Positions 10,969 through 30,083 of a stretch of 33,358 bases of DNA are shown piece after piece; within the stretch, counting starts at the first letter, position 1; each line of letters starts with the position of its first letter. The notes beneath the pieces are model-generated. The model did no database searches. It was given only the letters and a program-made list of their open reading frames with translations, and was not told the DNA's origin. The stretch comes from an uncultured bacterium (GTDB lineage: Bacteria > Verrucomicrobiota > Kiritimatiellia > PWTM01), in NCBI GenBank assembly GCA_938005705.1, contig CALLML010000130.1:1-33358 (forward strand). Direction: 5' to 3'. A program made the translations under genes and the position numbers.

Positions 10969-11706
10969 GTGAGAATGAGCCCAACCCGCCCGCGCGTGAA
11001 ATCGGCGGCGCCTGGAACGTCACGCACTTCTTTTTTCTCGGGCGCCACCGCTATGATGGCAGGCGTTGCGTTGCTGCCGGTATGTGCCGCATTGACGTTC
11101 GCAACGATCGAGGAGTTGCGATCTGCTGTCCCTGCCGCGAGCGAATGGGCCCATTCCTCGCCCCAGTGGGGACTTGCCATCGGTTTTCTACTATGGCTAT
11201 CGCTCTATGCCACCACTCCACGCCCGATTCGCGCGTATGTGCTGGCCCATGAGCTGACCCATGCGTTCTGGGCGCTGCTACTGGGCGAACGTGTGAGTGA
11301 CCTGCGGGTCACGCGGCGCGGCGGAAGTGTTCGAATCGGGCGCAGAAGGTTTCTCGTTCTGCTGGCGCCCTATTTCTTTCCCCTATACACGCTGCTCGTG
11401 CTCGGCGCTTACGGAGTGGCGACGATGATCGGCGATCCGACGCCCTGGACGGTGTGGTGGTTGGCGGGCATCGGCTTCTCGTGGGGGTTTCACCTCACGT
11501 TCACCATCTCGATGCTGGCGGCGGGCCAGAACGACATCCGTGAGGCCGGACCGCTGCCCGCTTACGCAACGATATACCTTGTGAATCTCACCGGTCTCGC
11601 ACTGTGGATATCCGCCATCTCCCCAGCGCATTTTTTCAACATCATCGGGCGCACGATCGACTATCTGAGAGCCTGGGGGGGGGCTGTTTGCCGTTTATTG
11701 ACCTAA
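10969..11706 (+). CDS. Membrane metallopeptidase of M50/M50B type
   Basis: The 245-residue protein has about five hydrophobic helices and the zinc motif H94-E95-L-T-H98 in VLAHELTHAFWALLLGERV. It is followed by VTRRGGSVRIGRR and LVLLAPYFFPLYTLLVLGAYG, which resembles the M50B-like family, where a Gly-rich strand and AP-F/Y-FP-L follow the HExxH. These proteins cleave substrates within the membrane or are relatives of unknown activity. The third metal ligand (Asp in the LDG motif of canonical site-2 proteases) is not evident, so activity is uncertain. Start GTG 10969 has AAGGGGA 5 bases upstream; ATG 10975 is an alternative. A run of nine G (11675-11683) lies near the 3' end. Its stop codon overlaps that of the convergent toroid gene. 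Confidence 0.75.
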   Translation: MRMSPTRPRVKSAAPGTSRTSFFSGATAMMAGVALLPVCAALTFATIEELRSAVPAASEWAHSSPQWGLAIGFLLWLSLYATTPRPIRAYVLAHELTHAFWALLLGERVSDLRVTRRGGSVRIGRRRFLVLLAPYFFPLYTLLVLGAYGVATMIGDPTPWTVWWLAGIGFSWGFHLTFTISMLAAGQNDIREAGPLPAYATIYLVNLTGLALWISAISPAHFFNIIGRTIDYLRAWGGAVCRLLT

Positions 11707-13286
11707 ACCCTTTCGGATATCCGTTGCAACGTCGGATGGGTGATCCACACCCGAGACACCTCAACTTTAAGTTCGTCCTCGACCTTTTCCGTGGGGCGTT
11801 CCTCGATCTGGATGGGCTGATAGGTCGGCAGAAAACGGTAATACACCATCAAGGTCAACGCGCAGAACGACGTGGCATACACCGGCCCATATTCCTTCTC
11901 ATTGCCGTGAACCGGCGTCCAAGACCCGTCGGCGTTCTGTGCGCCGACGAAAGAACGTGCGAACACACTGTTCCATTCGTTCCACACGTTTCCGCCCACG
12001 TGAAAATGCGCCTGCGTGGCGTAGTACCAGACGTAGAGAGGATGCCCGCCCAGAGCCCGCGGGTTGTTATAATCCGCGCTCATGCCCTTCATCGATTCGA
12101 ATCCCGCCTTGGTCTCTGGATCGGCGCCGTGACCCGCCAACTGCAGACAGAGCACCGCCATACAGGTGTTCGGAAGCCGGCCCTTCACGCCGCCTTCCAC
12201 CCCATCGCCGCCGGGCGCATAAGCGAACATACGGCTCTCAGGATCGAAATTGACCTTGTATCCGTTGACGCCCTTTTCCATGGCCTCCTTCAAGCCGGGC
12301 ACTTCGAGCCCCGCGATATAGCCCGCTTTCATGGCCTGGTTCTGCCAGCCCATGACGGAGGAGTCGCGGCGGGTGTGGCTGGGATTCAGACCGTAATTGA
12401 ACGCCCCCGTCTCCTGCTGCCCTCGAATAATTCGCGCCAGAGCCTGTTCAGCGGCGGTTTTGACACTGGGAATACGCGTCAACGCGTAGGCTTCACAAAG
12501 GGCATACGTGGCGATGCCGTGACCGTAATAGCCGTGATCCACGTTTCGAAACCGATCGCCGGACCAATCCTGTTCCACCAGAAATCGAATGGCTTTCTCG
12601 ACGGTGGGTCCGTAGCGTTCTGACGATGGCGTTTCCCCGTGGGCCAGAAAGGCCAGCAGCGCCAGGCCCGTCATTGCCGTCTTGGTCTTCGCCCTGCCTT
12701 CGCCCTCCCAGGAGCCGTCCGGCAACTGGTGTTCCTTCAGCCACTCCAGCGCTTTAATCACTGCCGCTTCCGTCATCCCAAACGTCTTTCCACCGAACCG
12801 TTTTCCCATCGCCGCCCGCCCCTCTGCTGAGCGCCCTGCGAACAACCCCTTCATGACCAGTGGACTTTGCACGTCTGCCTTGATATCCAGCGCCGCAAAA
12901 TCTTCGCGCGGCGTCGGGGTCGCCATCGGCGTCACGTCCGGCGGCTGTTCCATCACGATGTCCGCATCCGGCGGACGGATATCCACATCCACATCCTTGA
13001 TTTTTTCCAGCTCCTTCTGAAGTTCCTCGAGATTGGCTGTCTCCGGCTCCATCATCATCACCTCGATTTCCGCCATTCGCCGCTCCGAGATTCCGGTGAC
13101 GAACCGAATCAGAATCACCAGAATCAGAATGTGCAGAATTATGGAACCGGTCGGCCCCCAGAGATGATCCAACATCACTCTGAGATGCCGGTTGATCCGT
13201 TGGCGGTTTGTCTCTTCAAAAACGGGAATTGCCCCGTCTCCCCCCTCCTGAGGAGGAGTGATTATTTCATCAGCCATACGATTCAT
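11703..13286 (-). CDS. TonB/TolA-like anchored alpha/alpha-toroid protein (squalene-cyclase repeats), copy 2
   Basis: This 527-residue protein is the last gene of operon A. One TM helix near the N-terminus (SIILHILILVILIRF, 48-62) carries S48-x3-H52, the spacing of the TonB and TolA anchor. It is followed by an acidic helix (METANLEELQKELEKIK-like, about 76-95) and a Pro-rich linker (about 100-125). From about residue 165 there are prenyltransferase/squalene-oxidase repeats with QW-type motifs (QLPDGSWEGEG, QQETGAFNYG, QNADGSWTPV). The DxDD catalytic motif of terpene cyclases is absent, so I infer a structural or binding toroid in the periplasm rather than an enzyme. GAGG lies 7 bases before ATG 13286. 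It is a paralogue of the gene upstream; the anchor segment is identical in DNA over 107 bases. Confidence 0.8.
   Translation of the reverse strand: MNRMADEIITPPQEGGDGAIPVFEETNRQRINRHLRVMLDHLWGPTGSIILHILILVILIRFVTGISERRMAEIEVMMMEPETANLEELQKELEKIKDVDVDIRPPDADIVMEQPPDVTPMATPTPREDFAALDIKADVQSPLVMKGLFAGRSAEGRAAMGKRFGGKTFGMTEAAVIKALEWLKEHQLPDGSWEGEGRAKTKTAMTGLALLAFLAHGETPSSERYGPTVEKAIRFLVEQDWSGDRFRNVDHGYYGHGIATYALCEAYALTRIPSVKTAAEQALARIIRGQQETGAFNYGLNPSHTRRDSSVMGWQNQAMKAGYIAGLEVPGLKEAMEKGVNGYKVNFDPESRMFAYAPGGDGVEGGVKGRLPNTCMAVLCLQLAGHGADPETKAGFESMKGMSADYNNPRALGGHPLYVWYYATQAHFHVGGNVWNEWNSVFARSFVGAQNADGSWTPVHGNEKEYGPVYATSFCALTLMVYYRFLPTYQPIQIEERPTEKVEDELKVEVSRVWITHPTLQRISERV
13072..13178. repeat. 107-base segment identical to 14651-14757
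   Basis: This block encodes the TM anchor of the second toroid protein and is base-for-base the same as the block at 14651-14757. Outside it the two genes differ at many positions: seven changes in the next 51 bases on one side and complete divergence on the other. Confidence 0.9.
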
Positions 13287-13317: not shown

Positions 13318-14859
13318 TCATCCAATAATATCGACTTTCACGTCGTCTTCAGACTGCTGCGTTGGCAGTTCCTCGATTTGAATAGGCTGATAGGTGGGCA
13401 GAAACCGATAATACACCATCAGCGTCAACGCCGCAAAACATGTGCCGTATACGGGACCATAGGGCACCTCGCGCCCAATGGCCGGCGTCCAGCTCCCGTC
13501 CGCGTTCTGCGCTGCCAGATATGCCGCCGAAAACGCACGATTCCAACGATCCCACGCCTTACCGCCGGTGTGAAACATAGCCTGCGTGTGATAATACCAG
13601 TTGTATAGCGTGTCCAACCCGACGCCCGGCCCATTCCAATTAATTTCAGCCGTTGAAATCGTTTCAGCTCCGGCGCGGGCCTCCGGAGCCCCGCCATGGC
13701 CAAGAAGCTGGAGACAAAGCACGGCCTGCATGGTATTGCTCTGCCAGCGGGGCGTCACACCGGGATCGGCGGCCGATGGATCGATGGCATAGGCGAAAAG
13801 GCGGCGTTCGGGGTGATACGCCATTTTCAATCCGCTGGCGATCTGATCCATGGCCTCCTTGAGGCCCGGCACCTCGACGCCGGCCAGATATCCGGCCTTC
13901 ATCGCCTGCGACATCCAACTCATGATGGAGGTGTCGCGCCGCGTGCGATGCGGTTGCATTTCATACGTGTGACCTCCGGTCGGCTGTTGACTGCGAATAA
14001 TGACTTCAAGAGCCTTTTCAAGGGCGGGACGGATGGCAGCCACGCGCGTCAAGGCATACGCCTCGCCGAGGGCATAGGTGGCTATACCATGGGCATAGGC
14101 GCTGACGCGAGCGGGCCCTTCGGATCGGAAGCGGCCGTTCTCGCGTTGATCCTCAAGCAAAAACTTGATCGCCCGCTCGACGGTTGGACCGAATTCTTCC
14201 GAGTGTGTGGTTTCCCCATGCGACAGGAAGGTTAGCAGGGCCAGACCGGTCATGGCCGTTTTGCATTTGGCCAGCCCCTCACCCTCCCATGATCCATCCG
14301 GCAATTGTTGTTCCTTAAGCCATCGTAGGGCCCGCCAGACCGCCGCATCGAGCGCTTTGTCCCGCCCCGGCGGCGCATAGCGCGCGAGCATCGCGGCGCG
14401 CCCTTCCGCTGTCCGCCCGGCGAAGAGGCCTTTCATCACCAGCGGACTACGGACATCGGCACGGATATTCAACTCGGCGAAATCCTCCATCGGGTTCATC
14501 ACCGTGGGCCGGACTTCGGGTGGCTGCTCAACGGGAAGGGCGGTGTCGGTCGGGAGAATATCGGGAATAGTTTCTTTAATACTTTCGAGCTCTTTCTGAA
14601 GCTCCTCGAAGTTGGCCGTTTCCGGCTCAATCATCATCACCTCGATTTCTGCCATTCGCCGCTCCGAGATTCCGGTGACGAACCGAATCAGAATCACCAG
14701 AATCAGAATGTGCAGAATTATGGAACCGGTCGGCCCCCAGAGATGATCCAACATCACGTGAATTTGGCGATTCAGCCGCCAACGCAGCTCGAGAGAGGGA
14801 CTAGTCTTTTCGGCCAGAGGATCAGCCTCTGGTGGGCCCGCTACAGGATGATCGCTCAT
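13318..14859 (-). CDS. TonB/TolA-like anchored alpha/alpha-toroid protein (squalene-cyclase repeats), copy 1
   Basis: The 513-residue product is built like its downstream neighbour. It has a cytoplasmic start, one TM helix with S46-x3-H50, an acidic helix (EPETANFEELQKELESIK), a Pro-rich stretch (about 95-120) and a toroid from about 150. Toroid motifs are QLPDGSWEGEG, QQPTGGHTYEM and QNADGSWTPAI; there is no DxDD. The shared ending MVYYRFLPTYQPIQIEE is strongly conserved. I start it at ATG 14859 (MSDHPV); the longer frame to 14961 is Arg/Lys-rich and lacks protein character. The ribosome site is weak (CAGG). It lies after two ExbD-type genes, so it is the likely energy transducer of this proton-channel set. 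Confidence 0.8.
   Translation of the reverse strand: MSDHPVAGPPEADPLAEKTSPSLELRWRLNRQIHVMLDHLWGPTGSIILHILILVILIRFVTGISERRMAEIEVMMIEPETANFEELQKELESIKETIPDILPTDTALPVEQPPEVRPTVMNPMEDFAELNIRADVRSPLVMKGLFAGRTAEGRAAMLARYAPPGRDKALDAAVWRALRWLKEQQLPDGSWEGEGLAKCKTAMTGLALLTFLSHGETTHSEEFGPTVERAIKFLLEDQRENGRFRSEGPARVSAYAHGIATYALGEAYALTRVAAIRPALEKALEVIIRSQQPTGGHTYEMQPHRTRRDTSIMSWMSQAMKAGYLAGVEVPGLKEAMDQIASGLKMAYHPERRLFAYAIDPSAADPGVTPRWQSNTMQAVLCLQLLGHGGAPEARAGAETISTAEINWNGPGVGLDTLYNWYYHTQAMFHTGGKAWDRWNRAFSAAYLAAQNADGSWTPAIGREVPYGPVYGTCFAALTLMVYYRFLPTYQPIQIEELPTQQSEDDVKVDIIG
14651..14757. repeat. 107-base segment identical to 13072-13178
   Basis: Partner of the block at 13072-13178. It covers the S-x3-H TM helix and the ISERRMAEIE segment just after it. 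Confidence 0.9.
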
Positions 14860-14970
14860 TGCCTGACTCTGTGCTGTTAATACGCCGGATGAATACCATC
14901 CGCAACACATCTTCCATCCGCGGCCTTTTTTTGGACGGCGGCGCCGCGGCTCGCGACCCACAGGGTCCGT

Positions 14971-15381
14971 TCAGTTGGTGCTGATGACCGAGATATTGGA
15001 CAGTTCAGCTTTCGCGCAGAGATCAAGCACCTGAATCAGTTGGGCATGCTCCGAGTAGGCCGATACCATGATCAGCACCGTCTGCTTCTTGTCGAGTTCC
15101 GCCATGCGAATAAGGAGTCGTTCAAGCTCCGCAGCTGTGACCGGACGGTCATTTAAGGTGAACCCCTCTTTAAAGACGTTGATGCGCATCATCTTAGGGG
15201 GCACTTCCATCCGGTCCCGACGATCCTCCGGTGAGGGACGCGAAACATCGAGATGGGCGAAGACATCAATAGGCCTAATTGTGACGAGAAAATAGATGAG
15301 CAGTTGGAATACGACGTCAATCATCGGTGTCATAGGCAGGTCTGCCGGCAACTGCTCGGGCCGTTTGCGTTTGCGAGCCAT
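14971..15381 (-). CDS. ExbD/TolR-type proton-channel subunit (operon A, second)
   Basis: The 136-residue protein has a basic N-tail (ARKRKRPEQ), one TM helix with the functional aspartate D22 in MTPMIDVVFQLLIYFLV, and a periplasmic domain typical of ExbD/TolR. That domain ends with a regulatory helix and strand (IQVLDLCAKAELSNISVIST). ExbD uses this Asp to carry protons through the ExbB ring and drives TonB-type partners. ATG 15381 follows the stop of the previous exbD-type gene by one base (TGATATG) and has GGGAGG upstream. It differs clearly from the other ExbD, so the two may form a heteromer. Confidence 0.9.
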   Translation of the reverse strand: MARKRKRPEQLPADLPMTPMIDVVFQLLIYFLVTIRPIDVFAHLDVSRPSPEDRRDRMEVPPKMMRINVFKEGFTLNDRPVTAAELERLLIRMAELDKKQTVLIMVSAYSEHAQLIQVLDLCAKAELSNISVISTN

Positions 15382-15382
15382 A

Positions 15383-15808
15383 TCAGCCTCCCTCCCGTTT
15401 GGCGGGCTCCTTGATGGCGCCAAATTTGACCGTACGAAGCCCCGCTTCTGAGCAGGCATCCATCACGGCGCGAATAGCCTCGTGGGATGTTCGCATGTCT
15501 CCCCGAATAACTACGGGGAGCTCCCTGCCATACTCGGCGTGTGCTTTGCGCAGATAGGCCCGAAGCACGGGCACGGTCAGCCGCTGGTGCAAGATGGAAA
15601 TACGGCCCTGGGCATCCACATCCACATGGACTGTCCGAGGGTCTTTTGCCTCCACCGGTTTGCCGTGGGGGGCCATGGCCATCTTCAGCCGGATATCCAT
15701 ATCCTTGTTCTGAAGATCAATCGTCGTAATAAAGAAGATGATGAGCTGGAACACGACGTCAATCATCGGCGTCATGTTGACCGGCATCTCCTCGAGCTTT
15801 TTTTTCAT
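15383..15808 (-). CDS. ExbD/TolR-type proton-channel subunit (operon A, first)
   Basis: The 141 residues show the ExbD plan: a short cytoplasmic start, a TM helix with D17 in NMTPMIDVVFQLIIFFITT, and a periplasmic domain (VHVDVDAQGRISI, VVIRGDMRTSHEAIRAVMDACSEAGL, VKFGAI). These last segments correspond to the ExbD region that contacts TonB. The ribosome site is modest (GGAA, 7 bases before ATG). It lies 45 bases after the ExbB-type gene and directly before the second ExbD. Confidence 0.92.
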   Translation of the reverse strand: MKKKLEEMPVNMTPMIDVVFQLIIFFITTIDLQNKDMDIRLKMAMAPHGKPVEAKDPRTVHVDVDAQGRISILHQRLTVPVLRAYLRKAHAEYGRELPVVIRGDMRTSHEAIRAVMDACSEAGLRTVKFGAIKEPAKREGG

Positions 15809-15853: not shown

Positions 15854-16663
15854 TTATTCCTCGGCCACCACTTCGACATTTCGCAGCGACTTGATCAGGT
15901 CCATGGTGAGGCTTTCCATGGAGAGGATGATCTTGGTCGCACGGTTTTTAAAATACGTATAGAAACTGATGGCGGGGATCGCGATGACAAGGCCCGCCGC
16001 CGTCGTCCACAGGGCTTGGGCGATGTTTCGGGCCAGCATCGCCTGCTGGAGTGCGCCGGCCTGCATGGTTGCCAGCGTGGCGAAGGCGAAAATCATGCCT
16101 TGCACGGTGCCCAGCAGTCCGAGCATCGGTGCGAGGTTGGCGCAAACATTCAGGTACGCAACCCTCTGCATCAGTTTTTCACTCTCCATGTCGGCGGCAA
16201 CGCCGACCACATCTTGAATGACGTCATAACCTTCCTGCACGTTCGAGAAACCGGCGGTCAGGATGTTGGCCAAGGGAGTGGGATGGTCCTCGCAATGCTT
16301 AAGGGCCTTCATCACGTCGCCCTGCTCCATCGCCTCGCGCACCAGCGTGACGAGGTCTTCCGGAGCGATTTTCTTCTCCTTGATTGTCACAAAAGAGTCA
16401 ATGGCTAACGCCACCGCCGCCACCGAACAGGCCCCCAGCGCCAGCCACAGAACGACACCGACCCAGCCTGAGCTCACCACGACCGTGATGAAGCCCATAC
16501 CGCTGTCCACCTTTTCCTCTTTCTTCTCCGCGTCTTTTTTCTCGGCACCGGCGGCCTCGCCCGCCGGCGCGGCGGGTGCCGCGGCCTCCTGCGCGTCTGC
16601 CCATATCGCCGCGCCGATCACCAAAACCAGTGCCATTGCCAACCAACGCCACGTGTTCTTCAT
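15854..16663 (-). CDS. MotA/TolQ/ExbB-type proton-channel protein (operon A)
   Basis: The 269-residue product starts with a signal-like helix (LAMALVLVIGAAIWADAQ) and a charged Ala/Lys/Glu linker (about 25-55). The three TM helices of the family follow. Hallmarks are LAPMLGLLGTVQGMIFAF (about 177-194) and ALWTTAAGLVIAIPAISFY (about 217-235), with the paired threonines and the GTV-GM motif of ExbB/TolQ. It would form the pentameric ring around an ExbD dimer in the inner membrane. ATG 16663 has GAGGAAG upstream; the longer frame to 16750 is shadow. An added exported N-terminus is common in ExbB proteins of this style. Confidence 0.92.
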   Translation of the reverse strand: MKNTWRWLAMALVLVIGAAIWADAQEAAAPAAPAGEAAGAEKKDAEKKEEKVDSGMGFITVVVSSGWVGVVLWLALGACSVAAVALAIDSFVTIKEKKIAPEDLVTLVREAMEQGDVMKALKHCEDHPTPLANILTAGFSNVQEGYDVIQDVVGVAADMESEKLMQRVAYLNVCANLAPMLGLLGTVQGMIFAFATLATMQAGALQQAMLARNIAQALWTTAAGLVIAIPAISFYTYFKNRATKIILSMESLTMDLIKSLRNVEVVAEE

Positions 16664-16746
16664 CGTACTTCCTCTTTCTTCCGGTTCTCCCTTGCGCTCG
16701 CCGTTCCCCGCCCCGGGGGTCGTTCCCCGGCCAGCGCTGTTCCGCC

Positions 16747-17523
16747 TCAAATCTTTTGTCGCGCCTCCGCCGCCTCCGGCGCCGAGGGAAATTCTTCGAC
16801 AATCCGTCGGTACCAGTCTTTCGCGCGCGAGTCTCTCATCCGCTCCAGCGTCGTCGCGGTCCGCAGCATAGCTCCCGGCATCAAATCCTTCTCGCTGGAA
16901 TAGAACATCACCGCCCGCAGATAATCAAGCACGGCCGCTTCCAATTGGTTGGCCGCCAGCCGGACATCTCCGCGCATGATCTGGGCGCGCGCCGCATCCT
17001 TGCGCGCGCCCTCAGCCACCAGCTTATTCAGCCGCGGCTCCAATTTCGCAAATTCCTTGGCCTGCAGCAGCGCGTTGTAATAATGCCATATCCAATCCGA
17101 ATCCTGTTCCGCCTGAGGAAACATGCGCAGGTGATCCTCAAAGGCTTTGATGGCGGACGGTAGATCGCCTTTCTCAACATAGGCGCGGCCAATCAGCTTG
17201 CTGGCCGTTTCGTCCCACGTCAGAAAACGCGCTTTCTGGATGACGTCACGCAGCAGCTTGATGCCCTCGTCGTAGCGCTTTTCCTGGAGCGCGCGCATGG
17301 CCTGATCGAACTCGGGGGGACGCGGCGCGACGGCCTGCCGAATGCGATCGCGAGGAAACTCCAGCTGGCCTGTGGCCGTCGTCAGAATAATCGTGCCGTC
17401 AGGGCGGGCCCGGATCGCCGTTCCCTCCATCCGACGCCCGTCTGTCGTCACGACATACACCTGCGCCCATACTTCGCCCGCGAGGCCGAGCGCCAGGCTG
17501 ATCGTCAACAGGGCTCTTTTCAT
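16747..17523 (-). CDS. Exported TPR protein (operon A, small)
   Basis: This 258-residue protein has a signal peptide (RALLTISLALGLAGEVWAQ). A small beta-rich part (VYVVTTDGRRMEGTAIRARPDGTIILTT, about 22-50) comes next, resembling the Sm-like or SH3-like strands found before some TPR proteins. TPR hairpins follow (FDQAMRALQEKRYDEGIKLLRDVI; GDLPSAIKAFEDHLRMFPQAE; LEAAVLDYLRAVMFYSSEK). ATG 17523 is preceded by GAGGAG. It takes the same operon position as the 365-residue TPR protein of operon B, and both place a beta part ahead of the TPRs. A role as periplasmic partner of the channel, like CpoB in the Tol-Pal operon, is inferred. Confidence 0.78.
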   Translation of the reverse strand: MKRALLTISLALGLAGEVWAQVYVVTTDGRRMEGTAIRARPDGTIILTTATGQLEFPRDRIRQAVAPRPPEFDQAMRALQEKRYDEGIKLLRDVIQKARFLTWDETASKLIGRAYVEKGDLPSAIKAFEDHLRMFPQAEQDSDWIWHYYNALLQAKEFAKLEPRLNKLVAEGARKDAARAQIMRGDVRLAANQLEAAVLDYLRAVMFYSSEKDLMPGAMLRTATTLERMRDSRAKDWYRRIVEEFPSAPEAAEARQKI

Positions 17524-17575
17524 GGATTTTTCTCCTCGTTCTACAAACCTTTTCATACCCGGACTCTCTCCCCGC

Positions 17576-20407
17576 TCAGGGCTGTGCCGTCACGGCCTTC
17601 AAGCGAGCCTCTTCGCGCCAGCGGCGAAAATCGGAAACCCGTGAACCGTCTGGATAAAGATTTAGATATGTTTCGCAGTTCTCGACGGCGCGGTCAAAAA
17701 ATCCGATCTCCAGAAACAGTGGAACACTGGCGGCCAGCGCATCCTCAATCATCGGGCGAACTTTCGGGTCCTTCGGATCGTTGCCGGAGATAATCACCCG
17801 TTGATAGGAGGCCAAGGCCGCCAGGATTTGTTCGCGTTGTTCCGCCGGGCGATTTTGTTGCTGGAATGCCCTCGCCATACGGATCTGGATTTCGGCCAAC
17901 TCCATATTGGCAGTATTGATGAGCACCGGATCGGTCGCAAAACGAAAGACCTCGTTCAGGGCGTCCACCGCCTCCGGCAGGCGGCCGAGTTCGCGATAAG
18001 CGCGACCAAGCATAAATTTGGCCTGATAGAAAAGCCCGGAACGTGGATAGCGCCGCATCAAATCGGTCAGCGCGGCGACCGCCTCCTCATATTTCTTCGC
18101 GTCATAGGCGGCAGAACTGAGTCCAAAGAGCGCCGGCTCCAGTTGAGTCCGGTCGGCCGTATCGTTTCCGCGCACGAGGTCGTACGCCTGCATCGCTTCC
18201 TCCAGCAGACCCGCCTTCCGCATCAAATCGCCCATGCGGACGATCTGATCGAGCGAAAAACGGGCGGGCTCGCGTCGAACCTCGTTCCACGCCTCCCGCG
18301 CGGTATCCGGACGCCCCAGCTCAACGGCCGCGCTGATGCGCGCGTAATGGGCGCTGCGGCCCTCTTCCGAGGTCGGATATCGGCGGGCGAGTTCGTCGAA
18401 GGTGGACGCGGCCTTGGCGCTGTCCCCCAGCTCAAGGTGGATGCTGCCGATGATGCTCATGGCCTTCGGTGCCAGTTCCGTCTCACCGAATTTGGCAACA
18501 AAATCCTCGAGCATTTTTACGGCGGTGGCGCGCACGGCGCGCTGGCGGTCCGGCGGCACATCCAACCGGGACAGCGAATAACCCAGATAGAAGGTCGCGT
18601 TGCGCAGCAGCTCCCGGTTTTTCGCTATTTCAGCGGAGGTTTGGCCGTAGGCGGGGTTTTCCCCGGTCGGCCCCAGCCACTGTTGTAGCGTTTCGAACGC
18701 CCGGATCGCCTGAGTGAAGTCGTTCATGCGCACATAGGCGTCGGCGAGACTGAACTGGGCCAGCGCGCGGTCGTGACTCGGCGGCGTTTTCTCGATGAGA
18801 AGGCGGAAGGTTTTGACCGCCTCGTCAAATCGCTGGGCACGATAGTGAGACCAGGCCAGATGGTTCAACGCGCGCAGGTAATATTGATCATCGGGATAAT
18901 CGCGGATGATCCGTTGCAGATAGGCGTTGGCCGCCTCTTCATTGCCATTGTTACGCATGATGCCCGAGAGGCTGAACAACACCATCGGCGTGCGTTCTTC
19001 CCGCGGGTACCGGTCCACGAAGAGATTGTAAAGATAAAGATAAGAATCCGCCTCGGCGCGGTCAAAACAGATCTTGGCGGCGGCCAGCAACCCCGTTGGC
19101 GCATCGGCATCGGAGGCATAGCGTTCGACGATGTGCTCGGCGACCGCACGCATAGCCAGGGTGTCTTTTTCGTGGGCGTAACACACGATAAGGTTCGTCA
19201 GCGGCCGCCCCACCCCCTCGAAGCTCGGAAATTGATTCAGGATGCTCAAATACTGAGCTGCGGCTTCGGCATAGCGGCGTTGCATGAACAGGTTGTCCGC
19301 CAGCCGGAAGCGCGCCTGAATGATGTTCTTCATGTAGGGACCGGGATTGATAGTGACTTTGCGTCCCATCGCCTCCAGCCGGGCCTTTAGATCATTGGAT
19401 CTTTCGCCGGCGGGAAAGGCCCATTCGCTTTCGGCATATCGGGCAAAGACATTGAAATACTCTGTCAGGGCCTTAACCAGCAGGTCGACCCCCTCGTCGC
19501 TTCGGCCGGCGGCCAGCGCCGCTTCGGCCTGTTCGCGATAGATCTCACCCAACAGATAGCGAGCGCCCGCCATCGGACTCAGCGCCATCGGAATCTCTTC
19601 CTTTTTCAAGATATCGTCGAGCTGGCGTAGAATATCCATGTAGTCGCGAATCAGCTTCGCCGCCGCATCCTTCTTGCCCCGCACAATTTCTATGTGCGCA
19701 AGCGTGATGACCGACTGTCCAAACCAGAGATCCAACCCCTTCCATTGGATTTCATCGCACAACGCCTTGGCCTTTTTCAGCATCTCCTCGCGGGCCGCAC
19801 CGGCTGGCGCGGATTCAGCGGCGCGCACCCAAAGCTGCGCCAGCTCCGCCGACAACCGACGGGCCACATCCGCTTCTTCCTGACTCGCTTGCAGTACCTT
19901 CTCAAACGCCGCTGCAGCGCCCCGAAGATCGCCCGCGGCCTCCAGCATCTTGGCAAACTGATAGGCGGAATCCATATAGAAGCGACGGAAGTCCGGATCG
20001 GTGGGAATGCCACCCTTGTACTGGGAAAAAAACGCATCGTAGATCGCGCGCGCCTTCTCTATTTCGCCCACGCGATAATATCCCTTGGCGATCGCCAGCC
20101 GGACGGCCTGAGTTCGGGGGCTATCTTTTGGCATCGCCGCCGCGATGGCCTCCGCGTCCGCAAATCTGCGCCGGGCAATGAGGGATTCGGCGAGGATCAC
20201 GCGCCCGCGTTCCGCCTGGTCGGGAAACCGGCGCGCGAGCTGGTCCACGAGACGTTCGGCAAAATCAGCAAGGCCGTTTTCCACTAGCCACGAGGCAAAC
20301 GCATATTCCCGGTCCGCCTCCGAAGACTGTTGGGCCGGCGCGCTCGCGGCGACCGCCAGCACGGCCATGACCCCGGCGACCACGGAACAAATGGGCCTCG
20401 CGCACAT
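17576..20407 (-). CDS. Very large exported TPR protein (operon A, first gene)
   Basis: The 943 residues start with a signal peptide (CSVVAGVMAVLAVAASAPAQQ) and then consist almost wholly of TPR-type helical hairpins, including FADFAERLVDQLARRFPDQ-like units, QRRYAEAAAQYLSILNQFPSF, AANAYLQRIIRDYPDDQYY, FDEAVKTFRLLIEKTPP, YEEAVAALTDLMRRYPRSG and LPEAVDALNEVFRFA. No enzymatic domain is seen. Such proteins act as periplasmic or outer-membrane-side scaffolds. GGGGGAG lies 7 bases before ATG 20407. A promoter with a palindrome at the predicted start site stands upstream. Length and position match the 947-residue protein that opens operon B, but the repeats are not closely similar. Confidence 0.82.
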   Translation of the reverse strand: MCARPICSVVAGVMAVLAVAASAPAQQSSEADREYAFASWLVENGLADFAERLVDQLARRFPDQAERGRVILAESLIARRRFADAEAIAAAMPKDSPRTQAVRLAIAKGYYRVGEIEKARAIYDAFFSQYKGGIPTDPDFRRFYMDSAYQFAKMLEAAGDLRGAAAAFEKVLQASQEEADVARRLSAELAQLWVRAAESAPAGAAREEMLKKAKALCDEIQWKGLDLWFGQSVITLAHIEIVRGKKDAAAKLIRDYMDILRQLDDILKKEEIPMALSPMAGARYLLGEIYREQAEAALAAGRSDEGVDLLVKALTEYFNVFARYAESEWAFPAGERSNDLKARLEAMGRKVTINPGPYMKNIIQARFRLADNLFMQRRYAEAAAQYLSILNQFPSFEGVGRPLTNLIVCYAHEKDTLAMRAVAEHIVERYASDADAPTGLLAAAKICFDRAEADSYLYLYNLFVDRYPREERTPMVLFSLSGIMRNNGNEEAANAYLQRIIRDYPDDQYYLRALNHLAWSHYRAQRFDEAVKTFRLLIEKTPPSHDRALAQFSLADAYVRMNDFTQAIRAFETLQQWLGPTGENPAYGQTSAEIAKNRELLRNATFYLGYSLSRLDVPPDRQRAVRATAVKMLEDFVAKFGETELAPKAMSIIGSIHLELGDSAKAASTFDELARRYPTSEEGRSAHYARISAAVELGRPDTAREAWNEVRREPARFSLDQIVRMGDLMRKAGLLEEAMQAYDLVRGNDTADRTQLEPALFGLSSAAYDAKKYEEAVAALTDLMRRYPRSGLFYQAKFMLGRAYRELGRLPEAVDALNEVFRFATDPVLINTANMELAEIQIRMARAFQQQNRPAEQREQILAALASYQRVIISGNDPKDPKVRPMIEDALAASVPLFLEIGFFDRAVENCETYLNLYPDGSRVSDFRRWREEARLKAVTAQP

Positions 20408-20419
20408 GTCCGATCTCCC

Positions 20420-20435
20420 CCGAATGATCATTCGG
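20420..20435. promoter_or_regulatory. Perfect 16-bp palindrome at the operon A start site
   Basis: CCGAATGATCATTCGG reads the same on both strands and covers the predicted transcription start (about 20433). It may be an operator for a dimeric regulator. In RNA it would instead form a 6-bp stem with a GAUC loop at the very 5' end. Half of it, CCGAATGAT, recurs upstream of operon B (30155-30163). Confidence 0.6.
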
Positions 20436-22384: not shown

Positions 22385-22432
22385 CACATTCACAATCAAG
22401 CGCCAGCCAGCGTCTTGCCGCGCACCGGCGTC

Positions 22433-22930: not shown

Positions 22931-22932
22931 GA

Positions 22933-24315
22933 TCAATTCATCTTCCCTACACGGCGGTAGTTGCCGTTGTACTGTTTTGTGAAGGCGCGCAGGAAAGAAT
23001 CACCGTCCTGGTCAATGCCGTAGCCGATGGCGTGGACGACGGGGGGCTTGCGGCCTTTCGAATCGTAGAATTCCTTCTGGAGAATGCCGAAATGCTCAAT
23101 GAAATCGGCGAGCGTCCACCACTGCATACTCTTGGGCATCTCGGGTGGGCGCGGGCGTTGAATCACTCCCCCGTAATGCGACCCACCGCCGTAACGGCCG
23201 ACGGGCACTCGCCGCACCTCCCATCGGCCCGGTTGTGCCGGTTGACCCTCACGGTAAGGCCTCGGCGGGATCCAGACGCGCTCCTCGCGATATTCGATCG
23301 GCCCCGAGGGAGCCGCGGCGGCGGGGGCCGTGGCGGCGGCCGCTGCCGCGCGGGCCAGGGCGGCTTCGTTCTCGCGCCGCCACTGCTCCATGCGGGCGTT
23401 CCATTCCGCGAGTTGTTCCGCCGTCGGCTCCTTGCGCACCAAGGGTTCGCCGTCGCTGATGATGAGGATCGTGTCAGCCCCATGCATGAAGGCCGCCGTG
23501 AGCGCCAGATCGAGGCGCGTCGTGCCGCCGAGCGCCCGCAGGCCCTTGTCGCTGGCCTGGATGTTGCCCTTCACAACACCCGCCTGTTCGAAGCTGGTGT
23601 TGAACGGCTGAAGATAGAGCTTCGCGTCCTGCTTGTTCTTCTGGGTCGCCGGCACCATCTCGGGTTTCCAGGCGGCGGCCTCGTCCGCGAAAACGATGAG
23701 GGAGAATAGGGTCTGTTCGTTCAGCGCGTCAATGACGCGGTTGATGCGCATCTTGACGCGGTTCATGCCCTCGAGTCCGCCGCGTTCCTCCTCGACCATG
23801 CTGCCGGAGACGTCCACCAAAATCGCCACACGCGCGCCACGACCGCGGATGCCAAAGAAGTCGAATTGAGACACCCCTTGTCCGAAGCCGCCGAGCCCCA
23901 AACCCCCGCCGAGGCCGACGCCCATGCCCTGGCCACTGAACGCCTTGAAGTTCGGTTGGAAGGTGGTACGAATGACCTTGGGATCGAGCTTGATTTCCGG
24001 AAGCGAAAGCTGCGAGGGGCGCGTCGAAACCATGCGGGGGGCGATCGTCGGACGGCTGGAGCTGCGCTGGCGCTTCTGCACCTTGACCTTGTGTTCCAGC
24101 TTGCGCGGCTCGTAGGTCTTCAGCGGCGGCGGCGCCACAAACACGGTCCGCTCATCAAGATATGACCGGATCACAACCCACGACCCGAACGCGATCAAGC
24201 CGAAGAGGTGTACCGCAAGACTGACCAGAAGGATGCGCGTGAGCAGCCGACGCCGCTGCTCCGTCATCTTGTAATACCCCAGCCCGGACAGCCAGACCGT
24301 CAGATCGGCTTTCAT
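22933..24315 (-). CDS. TonB/TolA-like anchored von Willebrand A protein (operon B)
   Basis: This 460-residue protein has one TM helix (LLVSLAVHLFGLIAFGSWVVI, about 29-49) with S32-x3-H36, the anchor spacing of TonB and TolA. A Pro/Lys/Arg-rich periplasmic stretch (APPPLKTYEPRKLEHKVKVQ, 61-80) and a Gly-rich loop (about 128-150) follow. The vWA domain from about 162 has a full metal site: D168-x-S170-x-S172, T in GGTTRLD (263-269) and D288 in ISDGE. It is interrupted at about 300-400 by an Ala- and Pro-rich insert (RAAAAAATAPAAAAP, WIPPRPYREGQPAQPG) before YGID and the end. It probably binds a protein ligand in the periplasm and is moved by the ExbB/ExbD channel encoded just upstream. ATG 24267 is an alternative start. 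Confidence 0.85.
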   Translation of the reverse strand: MKADLTVWLSGLGYYKMTEQRRRLLTRILLVSLAVHLFGLIAFGSWVVIRSYLDERTVFVAPPPLKTYEPRKLEHKVKVQKRQRSSSRPTIAPRMVSTRPSQLSLPEIKLDPKVIRTTFQPNFKAFSGQGMGVGLGGGLGLGGFGQGVSQFDFFGIRGRGARVAILVDVSGSMVEEERGGLEGMNRVKMRINRVIDALNEQTLFSLIVFADEAAAWKPEMVPATQKNKQDAKLYLQPFNTSFEQAGVVKGNIQASDKGLRALGGTTRLDLALTAAFMHGADTILIISDGEPLVRKEPTAEQLAEWNARMEQWRRENEAALARAAAAAATAPAAAAPSGPIEYREERVWIPPRPYREGQPAQPGRWEVRRVPVGRYGGGSHYGGVIQRPRPPEMPKSMQWWTLADFIEHFGILQKEFYDSKGRKPPVVHAIGYGIDQDGDSFLRAFTKQYNGNYRRVGKMN

Positions 24316-24390: not shown

Positions 24391-24828
24391 TCAATCCGCA
24401 ACCGCCGTGAACGTAACATTTTTGATCTGCGCCTGCGCGCAGGCGTTCATGACGTCAATGGTGCGCTGGTGCGGCACGTTGTCTTCCGCCCAAATCGTAA
24501 TCATCGGCTCGTTACCGGATGCCTCCGAGGAGAGTCGGTAACGGACCAGCAGCGCCACCAACTCGGGCAGGTCCTGGGATTCGGGGCTATCCAGTTCGCG
24601 GCCATTGAGGATCACGCGCCCGTTCTCGCGTATTTCAATCATCTGCTCGTCGGGTAACTCCACTGTCTGCGCCTGTGCCAGCATGCCGGGCAGCCGGATG
24701 CCCAGATCGGCCTCCGACTTCACGAGACTCGCACTCACCATGAAGTACACGAGCAGCAGGAACACCATATCGATCAGCGACGCCACATTGACGTCGGGGT
24801 CATCCATGCCGACCGTTTCGACTTTCAC
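24391..24828 (-). CDS. ExbD/TolR-type proton-channel subunit (operon B, second)
   Basis: The 145-residue product starts at GTG 24828, which overlaps the stop of the previous gene (GTGA) and has GGAGAGG upstream; the open frame to 25164 is shadow. The TM helix carries D20 in VASLIDMVFLLLVYFMVSASLV. The periplasmic part has the ExbD strand and helix order (MIEIRENGRVILNGREL, LVALLVRYRLSS, PMITIWAEDNVPHQRTIDVMNACAQAQIKNVTFTA). It differs from the other three ExbD proteins here. Confidence 0.9.
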   Translation of the reverse strand: MKVETVGMDDPDVNVASLIDMVFLLLVYFMVSASLVKSEADLGIRLPGMLAQAQTVELPDEQMIEIRENGRVILNGRELDSPESQDLPELVALLVRYRLSSEASGNEPMITIWAEDNVPHQRTIDVMNACAQAQIKNVTFTAVAD

Positions 24829-25268: not shown

Positions 25269-26135
25269 TTAAGACTGGGGCGAGGGGGCGGGCGCCGGGG
25301 TCTGGACCGCCGGCGCTACCTCGCCGGTCGCCGACGGCGCCTGGAGTTGTTCCACCGTAATCTCGCCGGCCTCGATCTTGCGGACAATGGCGGCCAGATG
25401 ATGCGTCAGGTTGCCCGTGACACGTCCGATCTTGGCCATATTCGATTGAAAACGGCTCTTCAGCATGAAGTAGAAGAACATCGTCGGAATGCCGACGATC
25501 AGGCCGAACGCCGTCGTGATCATAGCTTCGCCGATGTCGCCCGCGAGTTTTTCGGGGTCGCCCATGCCGCCGAGTCCGATCTTGTTGAACGCCTTGATCA
25601 TACCGCTGACCGTACCGAGCAGCCCGAACATTGGCGCGATGGAGGCGATGATCGAGAGGTAGTTGATTGGACGCATGCCCGCGACGTTCTCCTCCACGGC
25701 CGCCTCTTCCATCGCTTTCTCGACGTTCTCCACCTCGGTCAGCCCGTCGGCCAGGCGCATCATGCCAGCATTGACGATGTTGGTCATGACGCCAGGCGAA
25801 CCGACGCACGTGCTGGACACTCCGCGGAAATCCAGGCGCGAAATCTGTTCCTGAATCGTCGGGACGAGACCCAGCTGCACCATTTTATCCTCGCGCACGG
25901 CCAGAAAACCATAGACGACGAGGGCGACGCCGGCGACCGAGAGGAGTCCGATGGGGTACATGGCCCATCCGCCCGTCTTCCACATGCCCCACAGCGTCAC
26001 CTCCGCCTTTCGCTGACCTTCCGGTGCGGCGGGCGCCCCTCCAGGCGTTCCTCCTTGCTGACCCCACGCCGTGCTCAGCGCCAGGGCACCGAGCAACAGC
26101 ATCATGACTGCCCATAGCTTCATCATCCGACTCAC
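25269..26135 (-). CDS. MotA/TolQ/ExbB-type proton-channel protein (operon B)
   Basis: The 288-residue product has a signal-like N-terminus (LWAVMMLLLGALALSTAWGQ), a Pro/Gly linker, and the three-helix ExbB core. IAPMFGLLGTVSGMIKAFNKI lies at about 166-186 and AMITTAFGLIVGIPTMFFYFML at about 204-225. The C-tail is Pro/Ala-rich. It starts at GTG 26135, overlapping the stop of the TPR gene (GTGA), with GGAAGGAG 7 bases upstream; ATG 26126 is possible. It is the ring subunit of the second channel set and is clearly different from the operon A protein. Confidence 0.92.
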   Translation of the reverse strand: MSRMMKLWAVMMLLLGALALSTAWGQQGGTPGGAPAAPEGQRKAEVTLWGMWKTGGWAMYPIGLLSVAGVALVVYGFLAVREDKMVQLGLVPTIQEQISRLDFRGVSSTCVGSPGVMTNIVNAGMMRLADGLTEVENVEKAMEEAAVEENVAGMRPINYLSIIASIAPMFGLLGTVSGMIKAFNKIGLGGMGDPEKLAGDIGEAMITTAFGLIVGIPTMFFYFMLKSRFQSNMAKIGRVTGNLTHHLAAIVRKIEAGEITVEQLQAPSATGEVAPAVQTPAPAPSPQS

Positions 26136-27229
26136 GGTTTTTCTCCTTCCGGTTTCGACTCCGCGCCGGGTTCCGTCGCGGGTGCGTCCACGTCAATATC
26201 CTTCACCCCCTCGCTGCCGGCGAGGAATTTCTCGATAACTTCCTTCATGTCCTCGGCGGAACCGAAGAACACAGCAGCGATGTCCGTTTCCTCGGCCTCG
26301 GCGGCGAGATCGTCACGCATGATCCGCCGTAGCCGCGCGCGAGAGCGATCGCCCCAATCGGTGCCGCGGAAGAGACGCGCAACCTCGTAATAGATATCCC
26401 GCGTGCGGTGCATCTCGTTCAATTCCTCGTAGCAACGGGCACTGAGGATCAAGGCATCTGGAAATGATTCGATATCCTTGGTCTCGTAAATCAGCGATTG
26501 GATCGCGGCATCCATGGCCTCCACATACTTTTTGCGCGCAAACAGCAACTCGCCCCGCGCCAGGTGATACACGCCGTAGGTGGCGTCGCCCTTGTCGGGC
26601 TCGCGCACGCGCGCCAATTCCTTTTCCGCCTCATCGAGACGTCCCAGGTCAATGAGGCAGAGGATCGCACGCATACGGGCGGACTCGCCGTAAAAATGCC
26701 ATTCGGCGCGCCCGGCAGCGTTGAGCACGGCATAAGCGCTGGCGAACAAGCGCGGGGCTGTTTCACGCTCTGCCGGACTCCCTTGCGCGGCGGTCTGGGC
26801 GGCCTTGCGCAAATAAACGCCTGCTTTGATCGCCCAGTCGGTCGCATTGTTGTCGGGTAGGTCAAGAAACGGGAGCGTCGGTTGGACGACCGAGAGGATT
26901 TTCTGGGCGGCCTGCAACCACTGGCGCTTCCGTGCGAAAGCAAAGACGGCGTTGTCGTCCACGGTAATATCGAACTCGGCCCGCTGTACCGCGTCCGGCT
27001 TCATGGTGGCGGAGACGCCCGGCGGCGATGTGGGCGTACGATAGAGGATGTCGCCGCCGCTACGGCCCAGCAGGAACACCTCGCGCGTGGCGACATCGAG
27101 CGTGACCATGGTCCGCAGGCCCCCGCCGGCGGCGGGGGCCGCCGGTCCTTGGGCGCGCGCGATCCCCGCCGCGAACGCGAGCGATGCCGCCAACCCCACG
27201 ATGCTCGTCCATTGCCTGCTTCTCTTCAT
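26132..27229 (-). CDS. Exported TPR protein (operon B, small)
   Basis: The 365 residues begin with a signal peptide (WTSIVGLAASLAFAAGIARAQ). A beta-type segment (TMVTLDVATREVFLLGRSGGDILYRT) follows, then helical TPR hairpins (FAFARKRQWLQAAQKILSVVQ, RLDEAEKELARVREPDKGD, FARKKYVEAMDAAIQSLIYET, EELNEMHRTRDIYYEVARLF). The acidic tail is rich in Glu, Pro and Ala. Gene order and the beta-then-TPR layout parallel the 258-residue protein of operon A. It sits 10 bases after the large TPR gene and overlaps the ExbB gene. A periplasmic adaptor role is inferred from position. Confidence 0.78.
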   Translation of the reverse strand: MKRSRQWTSIVGLAASLAFAAGIARAQGPAAPAAGGGLRTMVTLDVATREVFLLGRSGGDILYRTPTSPPGVSATMKPDAVQRAEFDITVDDNAVFAFARKRQWLQAAQKILSVVQPTLPFLDLPDNNATDWAIKAGVYLRKAAQTAAQGSPAERETAPRLFASAYAVLNAAGRAEWHFYGESARMRAILCLIDLGRLDEAEKELARVREPDKGDATYGVYHLARGELLFARKKYVEAMDAAIQSLIYETKDIESFPDALILSARCYEELNEMHRTRDIYYEVARLFRGTDWGDRSRARLRRIMRDDLAAEAEETDIAAVFFGSAEDMKEVIEKFLAGSEGVKDIDVDAPATEPGAESKPEGEKP

Positions 27230-27239
27230 GAACGCATCC

Positions 27240-30083
27240 TCACCCCGTTCTCTGCCGCAGACGTTCCAGAAGATCTTTGGCCTCCTCCACTTCCGGCATG
27301 CCCGCGTAGTCGGGGCTATTGATCAGCTCCTGCAGCGTCTCCATGGCCTTGCGGTGCTCGTACATCCGGCTCAGGCATTTGGCCCGCTCCACATAAGCCT
27401 TCGCCGCCCATTGCCGGTGGCCGGAATACATCACGTAAATGCGCTCGAAGTACACCGCCGCCGACTCGAATTTGCGCTGGGCGATCGCCACCTCGCCGAG
27501 TCGGAACAGCGCCTCAGGTCGATGTGAACGCCATTCGTTCGGCCCGAGCACGTCTTTGAAGGCCTTTTCCGCCTTCTCCAGCTCGCGCCGGTTCAGGTAG
27601 AGCCGGCCGAGCATCAGCAGCGCCTCCGCCGCTTCCGGACTGGTGGCATAGACCTCGCGAACGATGTCCAGGTGCAAAATGGCGGTGGGCGCGTCGTTAG
27701 CCTCGACGGCGTAGCGGGCCAGCAGCATCCGCGCGGAGAGCGCGTAATCGGTTTCAGTGAACTCGCGGATGATTTCCTCGGCCGCGGCCGCCGCCAGGGC
27801 CTTGTCGCCGGCGCGGTCGGCCTCGATCTGAATCATTTCCAACACGCCTACGCTGCCATGCGGGATGCTGTCGGCGCGGACGATCGCCCGCCGAAAGGCT
27901 TCCTTCTCGACGTCCGTCGCAGAGGGATCGAACATCAACATGCGCATGATCCGCAGCGCCAGCGTGCGTTCCCCCTTCTGCAACGCGTTCGACAGCAGGG
28001 CGCGCATATCCGCCCAAGCCGAGCGCGCCACCTCGCGCTCCGCGGCCTTTGCCCGTCCCACCCAGTCCTCGAAGATCAGGTCAATGCCCATCGCGCGCCG
28101 GTCTCGGCCATACTCCTCGATCGCACGCCGGTAATAAGCGAGCGCCCGCTCCTGGTCGCCCAGGTCCCAATAGGACGATCCCACCCAGTAAATCGCCATG
28201 GGCAGGTTCGAATCCTCCCGGTTCTTCTCGATGTAGCGTCGGAAATGCGCGATGATCGCCTCGAGCCAACGCGTTCGTTCCGGTCCTTCTTCGGAACCGG
28301 CCAGCTCTTTCATCATGTCGGCGGCGCGGAAGTACGCGTAGTTGTAGAGTTCGATGTTCAAGTCTTCGCCACGTTCGATGGCCTGCTCATAAAAGCGGAC
28401 GGCCTCGCGGACCTGACCGAAGACACCGGCAATATCCGCCAACATAAGAAAGGCCTCGGCTAGCAGTTTGCTTTCGGGATATCGCCGCACGAACGCGAAC
28501 AGACGTGTCTGGGACTCCTCGAAGAGACTGGCGCCGAACGCGCAGCTTGCCGCGCGGAACATCGCATCCTCGACGAACATGCTGTCGGGAAAATTGCGGA
28601 CGACGCGGTCGAAGTAAGGCATGCCCTCTTCGTATTTTTTGTCAAACAACAACGCCATGCCAGTCCAATAATGGCCGTCGGCCTCGCGCTCGTTGCCGAC
28701 GTAATCCGTATTCATGCGCACGAGGTAGCGCACGGCGTCCTCGAATTTCTCCTCCATGAAGGAGGCGTAGCCGAGCAGGAACAGCACCTCGACGATGCTC
28801 TCATGCTGCGGGCTCACTTCGAGGGCGGTGGTCAGCACCTCGATGACCTTGGGCCAGTCCTTGATGTTGGCGTACATCTGACCGAGCGTCAGCGAAACGG
28901 GGTCATACCATTTGCCGCCGGGAAACCGCTCCATGTACTCGTGGCCGCGCGCAAAGGCTTTCGTCGTCGGTTGAAATTTCGTTGCACTGTGGAACGAGAG
29001 GTAGAGGCATTCCTCGGCGCGGTCGCGGGGACCTTCTTTATAGAGGTCATAGAAGAACTCCGAAGATTCCCGGTAACGGCGAATCTCCATGTAGGCGCGG
29101 GCAATGCGGAAGAAAAGCTCGGGGTCATAATTGGGGATTTTTTTGAGCGCCTCCAGTTCCGCCTCGGCCTCGGCGACGCTCTCCTGCGTACGCAACAGTG
29201 TGCGAATGCGGCCCGGCGTGCGCTGGAGCATCTCCACCTGTTTCTGGAGAATCTCAATCTGCCGCTCGGCGTTGAGCTGGAGGAGGTCATGGGGGTAAAC
29301 GAGGCGATAGACCCAAAGCGCGTCGCGGTACTGCTCATCTGCGAAGAGGTCGTCGCCGGCCTGCAGCGCGGCCATGTTCAGCGCCACGCTGCGCGAGGCG
29401 AACGAGCCGGGTTCCAGCAACAATGGCACCAATCGGTAGACATTTTCCAGCTTCCGCTCATTCAGATAGTAAATCGTCAGCAGCGCCGCCGCCCAGTTGC
29501 GCCGGTGAAAGTCCGGCGCGAAACGGAAGATTTGCACCAGCAGCGGTTCCGTCTCTTTCCATTTTTCCTCCGCAAGCAGACAGCGGACCATAGAGACGAG
29601 CACGTCCACCCACAAATCCTGGTTCTGGAGGTATTCGTTCCGATACTCCTTCAGGGCCTTCCGATAGATCGCCAGGGCCTCTGCCCACTTCTTTTCATAA
29701 CGATGGGAATCGCCAAGAAACGCGGCGACCTCCGCCGCCCGGAAACCGCGACGATAGCGTTTCAGATATTCCTCAAAGACATTCCGCGCCTCGCCGAACT
29801 GGCCGACCAGCAGATAGCAGAGACCCAGGTTGAAGTACACCCCTTCCATTTCCTGAATGATGGAGGGGGTGCGACTGTCCTTGAACCATTCGACGAGCTG
29901 GGTCAGATAGCCGATGGCGTCCACATAGGCGCCTTGCGCGAGCGCCTGGGCCGCCATCTTGCGTACGTCGGCGACAGTATCTTGAGCTCGCGACTGTGGC
30001 GCGACCGCCGCCCACGCTACCAGGAGAGCCAAAAAAACAATGGTTCGCTGTCCGTTGCTGCTCCGACCTTTAGTTCTCGCCAT
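27240..30083 (-). CDS. Very large exported TPR protein (operon B, first gene)
   Basis: This 947-residue protein has a signal peptide (RTIVFLALLVAWAAVAPQSRAQ) and then TPR hairpins over nearly its whole length, including GAYVDAIGYLTQLVEWF, GEARNVFEEYLKRYRRGF, WAEALAIYRKALKEYRNE, YEEGMPYFDRVVRNFPDS, FEESQTRLFAFVRRYPESK, REAVRFYEQAIERGED and FESAAVYFERIYVMYSGH. There is no sign of an enzyme domain. GAGGGAG stands just upstream of ATG 30083. It opens the second Tol/Ton-like operon and probably forms a periplasmic scaffold; it could correspond functionally to the TPR protein CpoB of the Tol system, though far larger. Confidence 0.82.
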   Translation of the reverse strand: MARTKGRSSNGQRTIVFLALLVAWAAVAPQSRAQDTVADVRKMAAQALAQGAYVDAIGYLTQLVEWFKDSRTPSIIQEMEGVYFNLGLCYLLVGQFGEARNVFEEYLKRYRRGFRAAEVAAFLGDSHRYEKKWAEALAIYRKALKEYRNEYLQNQDLWVDVLVSMVRCLLAEEKWKETEPLLVQIFRFAPDFHRRNWAAALLTIYYLNERKLENVYRLVPLLLEPGSFASRSVALNMAALQAGDDLFADEQYRDALWVYRLVYPHDLLQLNAERQIEILQKQVEMLQRTPGRIRTLLRTQESVAEAEAELEALKKIPNYDPELFFRIARAYMEIRRYRESSEFFYDLYKEGPRDRAEECLYLSFHSATKFQPTTKAFARGHEYMERFPGGKWYDPVSLTLGQMYANIKDWPKVIEVLTTALEVSPQHESIVEVLFLLGYASFMEEKFEDAVRYLVRMNTDYVGNEREADGHYWTGMALLFDKKYEEGMPYFDRVVRNFPDSMFVEDAMFRAASCAFGASLFEESQTRLFAFVRRYPESKLLAEAFLMLADIAGVFGQVREAVRFYEQAIERGEDLNIELYNYAYFRAADMMKELAGSEEGPERTRWLEAIIAHFRRYIEKNREDSNLPMAIYWVGSSYWDLGDQERALAYYRRAIEEYGRDRRAMGIDLIFEDWVGRAKAAEREVARSAWADMRALLSNALQKGERTLALRIMRMLMFDPSATDVEKEAFRRAIVRADSIPHGSVGVLEMIQIEADRAGDKALAAAAAEEIIREFTETDYALSARMLLARYAVEANDAPTAILHLDIVREVYATSPEAAEALLMLGRLYLNRRELEKAEKAFKDVLGPNEWRSHRPEALFRLGEVAIAQRKFESAAVYFERIYVMYSGHRQWAAKAYVERAKCLSRMYEHRKAMETLQELINSPDYAGMPEVEEAKDLLERLRQRTG

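Follow-up and report, generated by a model that had tools for sequence, protein, structure and literature searches.

Which protein an ExbB/ExbD motor moves when neither TonB nor TolA is encoded beside it is the question raised by a stretch of 33,358 nucleotides (hereafter the window) from an uncultured bacterium of the Kiritimatiellia, phylum Verrucomicrobiota (contig CALLML010000130.1 of assembly GCA_938005705.1, labelled C130). The source is a draft genome of 2.76 Mb in 149 contigs, 92% complete. The window carries two consecutive operons on the minus strand, operon B (30083 to 20495) and operon A (20431 to 11703), which share the order large tetratricopeptide repeat (TPR) protein, small TPR protein, ExbB, ExbD, ExbD and then effector genes. 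The main effector of operon B is a von Willebrand factor A (vWA) protein, and those of operon A are two alpha/alpha-toroid proteins; all three are held in the membrane by a helix with the Ser-x3-His motif of TonB and TolA. On these sequence features, each operon probably encodes a trans-envelope machine driven by the proton motive force, with a vWA or a toroid domain as the transducer.

Gene organization of the two operons

Genes were called from open reading frames (ORFs) and their translations, and domains from Pfam scans, all of which bore out the two operons, their order and their coordinates as given in a preliminary description of this DNA. In the lists, TM stands for transmembrane.

Operon B
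27240..30083, minus strand: large exported TPR protein, 947 aa; signal peptide by inspection, Pfam TPR
26132..27229, minus strand: small exported TPR protein, 365 aa; Pfam scan, hhalign match to the operon A small TPR protein (97%)
25269..26135, minus strand: ExbB/TolQ-family motor subunit; PF01618, 99.6 bits
24825..25253, minus strand: ExbD-1; PF02472, 94 bits, TM Asp present
24391..24828, minus strand: ExbD-2; PF02472 by Pfam scan, TM Asp, GTG start at 24828 overlapping the ExbD-1 stop
22933..24315, minus strand: candidate vWA transducer with TM anchor (P0005); Ser32-x3-His36 at 24208-24222
22433..22936, minus strand: exported accessory protein of 167 aa, between the vWA and PEGA genes
20495..22399, minus strand: exported PEGA-domain accessory protein; PF08308

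Operon A
17576..20431, minus strand: large exported TPR protein, 951 aa; Pfam scan, neighbourhood comparison
16747..17556, minus strand: small exported protein with an N-terminal small beta domain and TPR; Pfam, AlphaFold (pTM 0.75), Foldseek
15854..16750, minus strand, likely start 16663: ExbB/TolQ-family motor subunit; PF01618, 95.6 bits
15383..15808, minus strand: ExbD-1; PF02472, 81.6 bits, Asp17
14971..15459, minus strand, likely start 15381: ExbD-2; PF02472, 67.7 bits, TM Asp
13318..14961, minus strand, likely start 14859: candidate toroid transducer 1 with TM anchor; Ser80-x3-His84 at 14710-14724
11703..13286, minus strand: candidate toroid transducer 2 with TM anchor; Ser48-x3-His52 at 13131-13145, toroid at about residues 154-485

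For ExbD-2 of operon B, a longer ORF reaching 25164 is probably spurious upstream of the GTG at 24828. The large exported TPR gene was found by neighbourhood comparison to be the conserved first gene of vWA operons, and the Foldseek matches of the small TPR protein of operon A are TPR, BamD and MamA proteins. Both large TPR proteins matched the CpoB model tol_pal_ybgF with 147 and 149 bits (NCBIfam cut-off 90). Because each contains five repeat stretches, we read these matches as a summed generic TPR signal and did not adopt the name.

The anchor helix of the effectors

The contact of TonB and TolA with their motors is made by a TM helix with the pattern Ser-x3-His-x6-Leu-x3-Ser (SHLS); Ser16 and His20 of TonB contact Ser34 and Trp38 of ExbB, the latter residue in turn touching Pro190 (Celia et al. 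2025, PMC12215075). The Ser-x3-His part of this pattern (SxxxH) is present in the N-terminal helix of all three candidate transducers of the window, and the residue seven positions after the His is Leu in the toroid proteins and Phe in the vWA protein. SxxxH was found in the TM helix of 44 of 61 toroid proteins and 20 of 22 vWA proteins, compared with only 3 of 134 N-terminal TM helices of other proteins from the same loci; the Fisher P-values of 5e-26 and 5e-20 overstate independence because the rows are related. Counted by residue, Ser, His and Leu are kept in 40, 42 and 40 of 52 toroid proteins, and Ser and His in 17 and 16 of 18 vWA proteins. His52, Leu54 and Leu59 do not vary among 10 toroid proteins with identities down to about 25%, those of Planctomycetota included.

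The two toroid proteins of the window share a 40-residue anchor that is 100% identical (119 of 120 bases), and their toroids are 59% identical. The tandem toroid pairs at loci L115, L125 and L127 follow the same trend, the anchor being less diverged than the toroid, and the pair at L124 is identical throughout. At the DNA level, the two window genes are exactly identical over 107 bp across the TM anchor (about 13073-13179 and 14652-14758) and about 60% identical elsewhere, which looks like gene conversion or homogenisation of the motor interface.

The toroid domain of operon A

Matches of the operon A effectors to single Pfam toroid models were weak (E 3e-5), and their profile matched squalene-hopene cyclase at 5e-21. 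In the AlphaFold model, whose input alignments were built from window and related-locus sequences only, the toroid residues mostly reach a pLDDT of 80-95. Foldseek, with target TM-scores reaching 0.66, gave squalene-hopene cyclases, enzymes of GH76 and GH105, and sugar epimerases as the best PDB matches. The assignment of two alpha/alpha-toroid proteins to the end of operon A, already made in the preliminary description, is thus firm by profile and predicted fold.

These domains share the fold and the QW-like repeats of squalene-hopene cyclases and related toroid enzymes. They differ from them in falling under the family cut-offs, in being tethered behind a TonB-like helix and in lacking the catalytic DxDD motif, which none of 52 toroids has at the aligned position; active class II cyclases were therefore rejected as an identity. 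Conserved polar and aromatic residues are kept (Tyr254, Glu265, Tyr298, Asp308, Trp314 and Tyr421/422), and this conservation in spite of the missing DxDD makes a bound ligand plausible. Since the cyclase motif is absent, we suggest that the toroid is most likely a non-cyclase domain that grips a ligand.

Two other toroid proteins were observed. Locus L070 encodes an exported toroid protein of 347 aa without SxxxH and without a nearby motor. The third toroid protein of the source genome itself (L073:8156-9775, contig C74 of G000) has an anti-sigma-like N-terminus and a TM helix with AxxxH and adjoins a sigma-70-like gene; it is possibly a FecR-like signalling variant.

The vWA protein and its accessories

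The vWA Pfam matches of P0005 are slightly under the cut-off (E 7e-5), and a DxSxS motif lies at residues 168-172. Homologues of the 167-aa protein follow the vWA gene in other genomes, and homologues of the PEGA protein occur at L088, L095, L096, L098 and L100. Of the end of operon B as it had been described, the PEGA protein stands by Pfam and the vWA protein by its matches just under the cut-off; the 167-aa gene between them had been overlooked, and the PA-IL/LecA-like domain proposed for the PEGA protein has no match among Pfam or PDB sequences.

It has recently been reported that vWA proteins with SHLS helices are predicted force transducers, that in the Planctomycetes-Verrucomicrobia-Chlamydiae (PVC) bacteria their genes often come downstream of those for a TPR protein, TolQ and two TolR proteins, and that one such case is Tichowtungia of the Kiritimatiellota (Williams-Jones et al. 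2025, Mol Biol Evol, PMC12204202). Operon B shares with this family the Ser/His TM helix, the linker, the vWA fold and the position after TPR-tolQ-tolR-tolR, and judged by sequence it is a member by every feature tested. The passages of the paper that were consulted do not mention a second TPR gene or the 167-aa and PEGA accessories. Operon A, in contrast to the published family, ends in toroids and has no vWA C-terminal domain; the words toroid, prenyl, squalene and cyclase are absent from the 2025 paper. Our search among 5.39 million open papers for toroid or squalene-repeat proteins with TonB or ExbD returned nothing relevant. The toroid transducer of operon A therefore appears to be the new part, not found described.

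The motors and their relation to Ton and Tol

The ExbB and ExbD proteins of both operons score far over the Pfam cut-offs. In an alignment of E. coli ExbB, TolQ and the ExbBs of both operons, the equivalents of E. coli ExbB Ser34, Pro190, Thr148 and Thr181 are invariant, and the membrane Asp of the ExbD/TolR type is invariant in the ExbDs, of which each operon has two different ones. The two ExbBs are about 30% identical to each other. They are not equivalogs of the known subunits: they reach 64 and 89 bits with the TolQ model (cut-off 221) and 41 and 47 bits with the ExbB model (cut-off 206). In the ExbB tree, the operon A proteins form one clade (99/99) and the operon B proteins another except for one long-branch row, and neither clade includes E. 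coli ExbB/TolQ or the other ExbBs of the genome.

A cognate tonB or tolA nearby, which would have counted against the proposed replacement of the TonB/TolA domain, was not found on the contig: TonB_C (PF03544) is absent there, and in the assembly it occurs in only two genes, on contigs C62 and C32, each adjoining its own ExbB/ExbD. Because the assembly is 92% complete, a further unlinked tonB may exist elsewhere in the genome. Among the window proteins scanned, Pfam gave no match to a TonB-dependent transporter or a TolB/Pal partner adjoining either motor. At the C62 locus (L068), a gene resembling a TonB-dependent transporter lies upstream by sequence inspection, and two consecutive ExbB-like genes were observed, the first of which encodes a long extension at the N-terminus.

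The window operons thus share with ExbB-ExbD-TonB and TolQ-TolR-TolA the motor family, the pore Thr residues, the ExbD Asp, the SxxxH anchor and the Ser34 and Pro190 of ExbB. They differ in lacking the TonB/TolA C-terminal domain, in having two distinct ExbDs per motor and an exported TPR pair, and in ExbBs that fall under both equivalog cut-offs.

Conservation and natural exchange of effectors

Neighbourhoods of relatives were fetched and scanned with profiles. Within the class of the window, 21 genomes have the exact order TPR-TPR-ExbB-ExbD-ExbD-toroid; 5 further genomes have the toroid operon with a small deviation, and in several more the contig breaks off within it. Seven genomes from elsewhere in the phylum, in other classes, also carry it, five of them in the exact order, and about 17 genomes have the vWA operon. 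The ordered gene set is thus conserved beyond this genome, a condition that the preliminary description had set for its reading, and its recurrence in dozens of genomes argues against chance. The operon A ExbB itself was found in 49 of 58 relatives and in 120 of 289 genomes of the phylum. Operons A and B are adjacent in the window, and one further genus (G005, L088) has them side by side. In other genomes of the family they lie on different contigs, so their adjacency is probably local history and not part of the system.

The effectors have also been exchanged in nature. In G025 and G037, a toroid stands behind an anchor and linker of the vWA type (EPRKLE..RSSRP..PRM..LPEIK). The G037 genes of this kind are separated by about 4.6 kb from a TPR-TPR-ExbB-ExbD-ExbD-ExbD set downstream of them. 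A third layout, with a large TPR gene, ExbB, a single ExbD and then a giant protein of 1084-1297 aa, occurs in G033, G020, G025 and the planctomycete Pla163 (L193:8124-16448, L195:4453-12559, L196:2791-10278 and L189:6788-15200). All four giant proteins have an SxxxH TM helix between the N-terminal part and a linker with a C-terminal toroid, and Pfam recognised a PD40 propeller in three of them. In G011 (L194:6691-10317, G011:C82), a 1208-aa protein consists of a toroid followed by a YfbK-type vWA (PF12450, PF00092, PF12034), its gene lying downstream of sigma-factor-like and anti-sigma-like genes. Such chimeras may account for the toroid-vWA profile match, which was given no weight as evidence of its own. 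These natural domain swaps suggest that the output domain is modular.

SxxxH is therefore joined to toroids in at least four anchor forms, namely the operon A anchor, the vWA-type anchor, the planctomycete type and the giant proteins. With somewhat less assurance than for the two operons as such, we favour the view that the toroid represents a new class of TonB/TolA-like force transducer, which serves two or three similarly designed machines in Verrucomicrobiota and Planctomycetota, vWA and toroid being tips that can replace each other on a single proton motor.

Other features of the window

Upstream of operon B, at 30221-32937, lie two neighbouring genes for MgtE-family Mg transporters, and 6929-8143 (minus strand) encodes a protein with CxxCxGxG-like (DnaJ/BSD2) zinc motifs. 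Genes flanking the operons in the compared genomes are mostly of one family with a MutL-like beginning (10 loci), a signal too weak to assign a role. An Rfam scan gave no match, a promoter scan gave a result no better than shuffled sequence, and terminator-like sites (28 observed, 18 expected) are scattered.

Alternative interpretations

The Myxococcus AglRQS-GltDEG core has one TolQ, two TolR, two exported TPR proteins (one large, one small) and a single TonB-like transducer (PMC3169522). In composition the window operons match it, bitopic transducer included. The preliminary description knew of no system of this composition; that statement falls for operon B, given the published vWA transducers (PMC12204202), and for the core, and stands for the toroid as far as our search reached. 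It is possible, though on balance doubtful, that the machines are surface-transport or gliding motors of the Agl-Glt/Nfs type that drag envelope or surface glycan complexes, with vWA and toroid gripping the cargo. Besides the identical core, this would fit the re-use of one Agl motor with Glt or Nfs as alternative complexes, Agl-Nfs moving glycan (PMC3858216), and the resemblance of alpha/alpha toroids to the sugar enzymes of GH76, GH105 and the epimerases. PilC/GspF-like genes, and PilT-like genes in several cases, also lie upstream of the operon A motor in six genomes outside the class (L161, L166, L168, L169, L172 and L174), hinting at a link to type IV pili or type II secretion that is too weak to assign a role. 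However, this linkage is absent from the class of the window, GltG has FHA and TonB_C domains that neither operon shows by Pfam, and the scanned window proteins included no GltG-like protein with them, no barrel of the outer membrane and no accessory component of Glt.

Several observations weigh against a force-transducing role. The last Ser of SHLS is absent from the window transducers, and Trp38 of ExbB, part of the TonB contact network, is unconserved in both operons. The His is missing in 10 of 52 toroid proteins (Asn in 5, Pro in 3, Gly and Val in 1 each), and some of these sit in complete motor operons. For TonB itself, the change of His20 to Asn is reported to leave the protein functional. 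In 3 of 8 tandem toroid pairs (L117, L120 and L107) the anchor has diverged further than the toroid, and several genomes carry the operon A motor without an adjacent toroid. Toroids without His, together with toroid proteins without a nearby motor such as those of L070 and L073, would suit a view of both kinds of effector as ordinary enzymes or binding proteins of the periplasm with a membrane anchor, SxxxH being incidental and ExbB-ExbD energising something else. We consider this improbable, since SxxxH is enriched about 30-fold over background TM helices and joined to toroids in the several anchor types named above, and the effector genes lie directly 3' of the motor in dozens of genomes. 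That two unrelated, look-alike gene clusters came together by chance, for which the generic TPR matches and the low identity of the two ExbBs could be cited, is refuted by the order conserved in two sets of genomes and by the collinear large TPR proteins, homologous over 774 columns in a profile alignment.

Proposed mechanism and implications

We thus return to energy-coupled machines in which the C-terminal domain of TonB/TolA is replaced, as first proposed in the preliminary description. Most sequence tests agreed with it (gene order, absence of TonB_C from the contig, SxxxH, the ExbB and ExbD residues and the natural swaps), and two of the three ExbB contact residues are conserved. That interpretation was largely right, half anticipated by published work and overall partly supported. 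In such a machine, an ExbB pentamer with a heterodimer of ExbD-1 and ExbD-2 would use the proton gradient, and the anchor helix would dock on the side of ExbB, its Ser and His lying against the Ser and Pro equivalent to E. coli Ser34 and Pro190. The long linker would pass the force to the periplasmic vWA or alpha/alpha-toroid tip, which may pull on or remodel a partner that the large TPR solenoid holds, much as TonB pulls on its receptor or the Agl motor on Glt. The effector would then be an exchangeable unit fitted to one shared motor interface.

The two outputs usually ascribed to these motors are TonB and TolA. The 2025 study added a vWA tip, and the toroid would add another, one that is found throughout a branch of poorly cultured bacteria. 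The toroid transducer may also supply a candidate function for many proteins annotated as 'prenyltransferase/squalene oxidase repeat' in these phyla.

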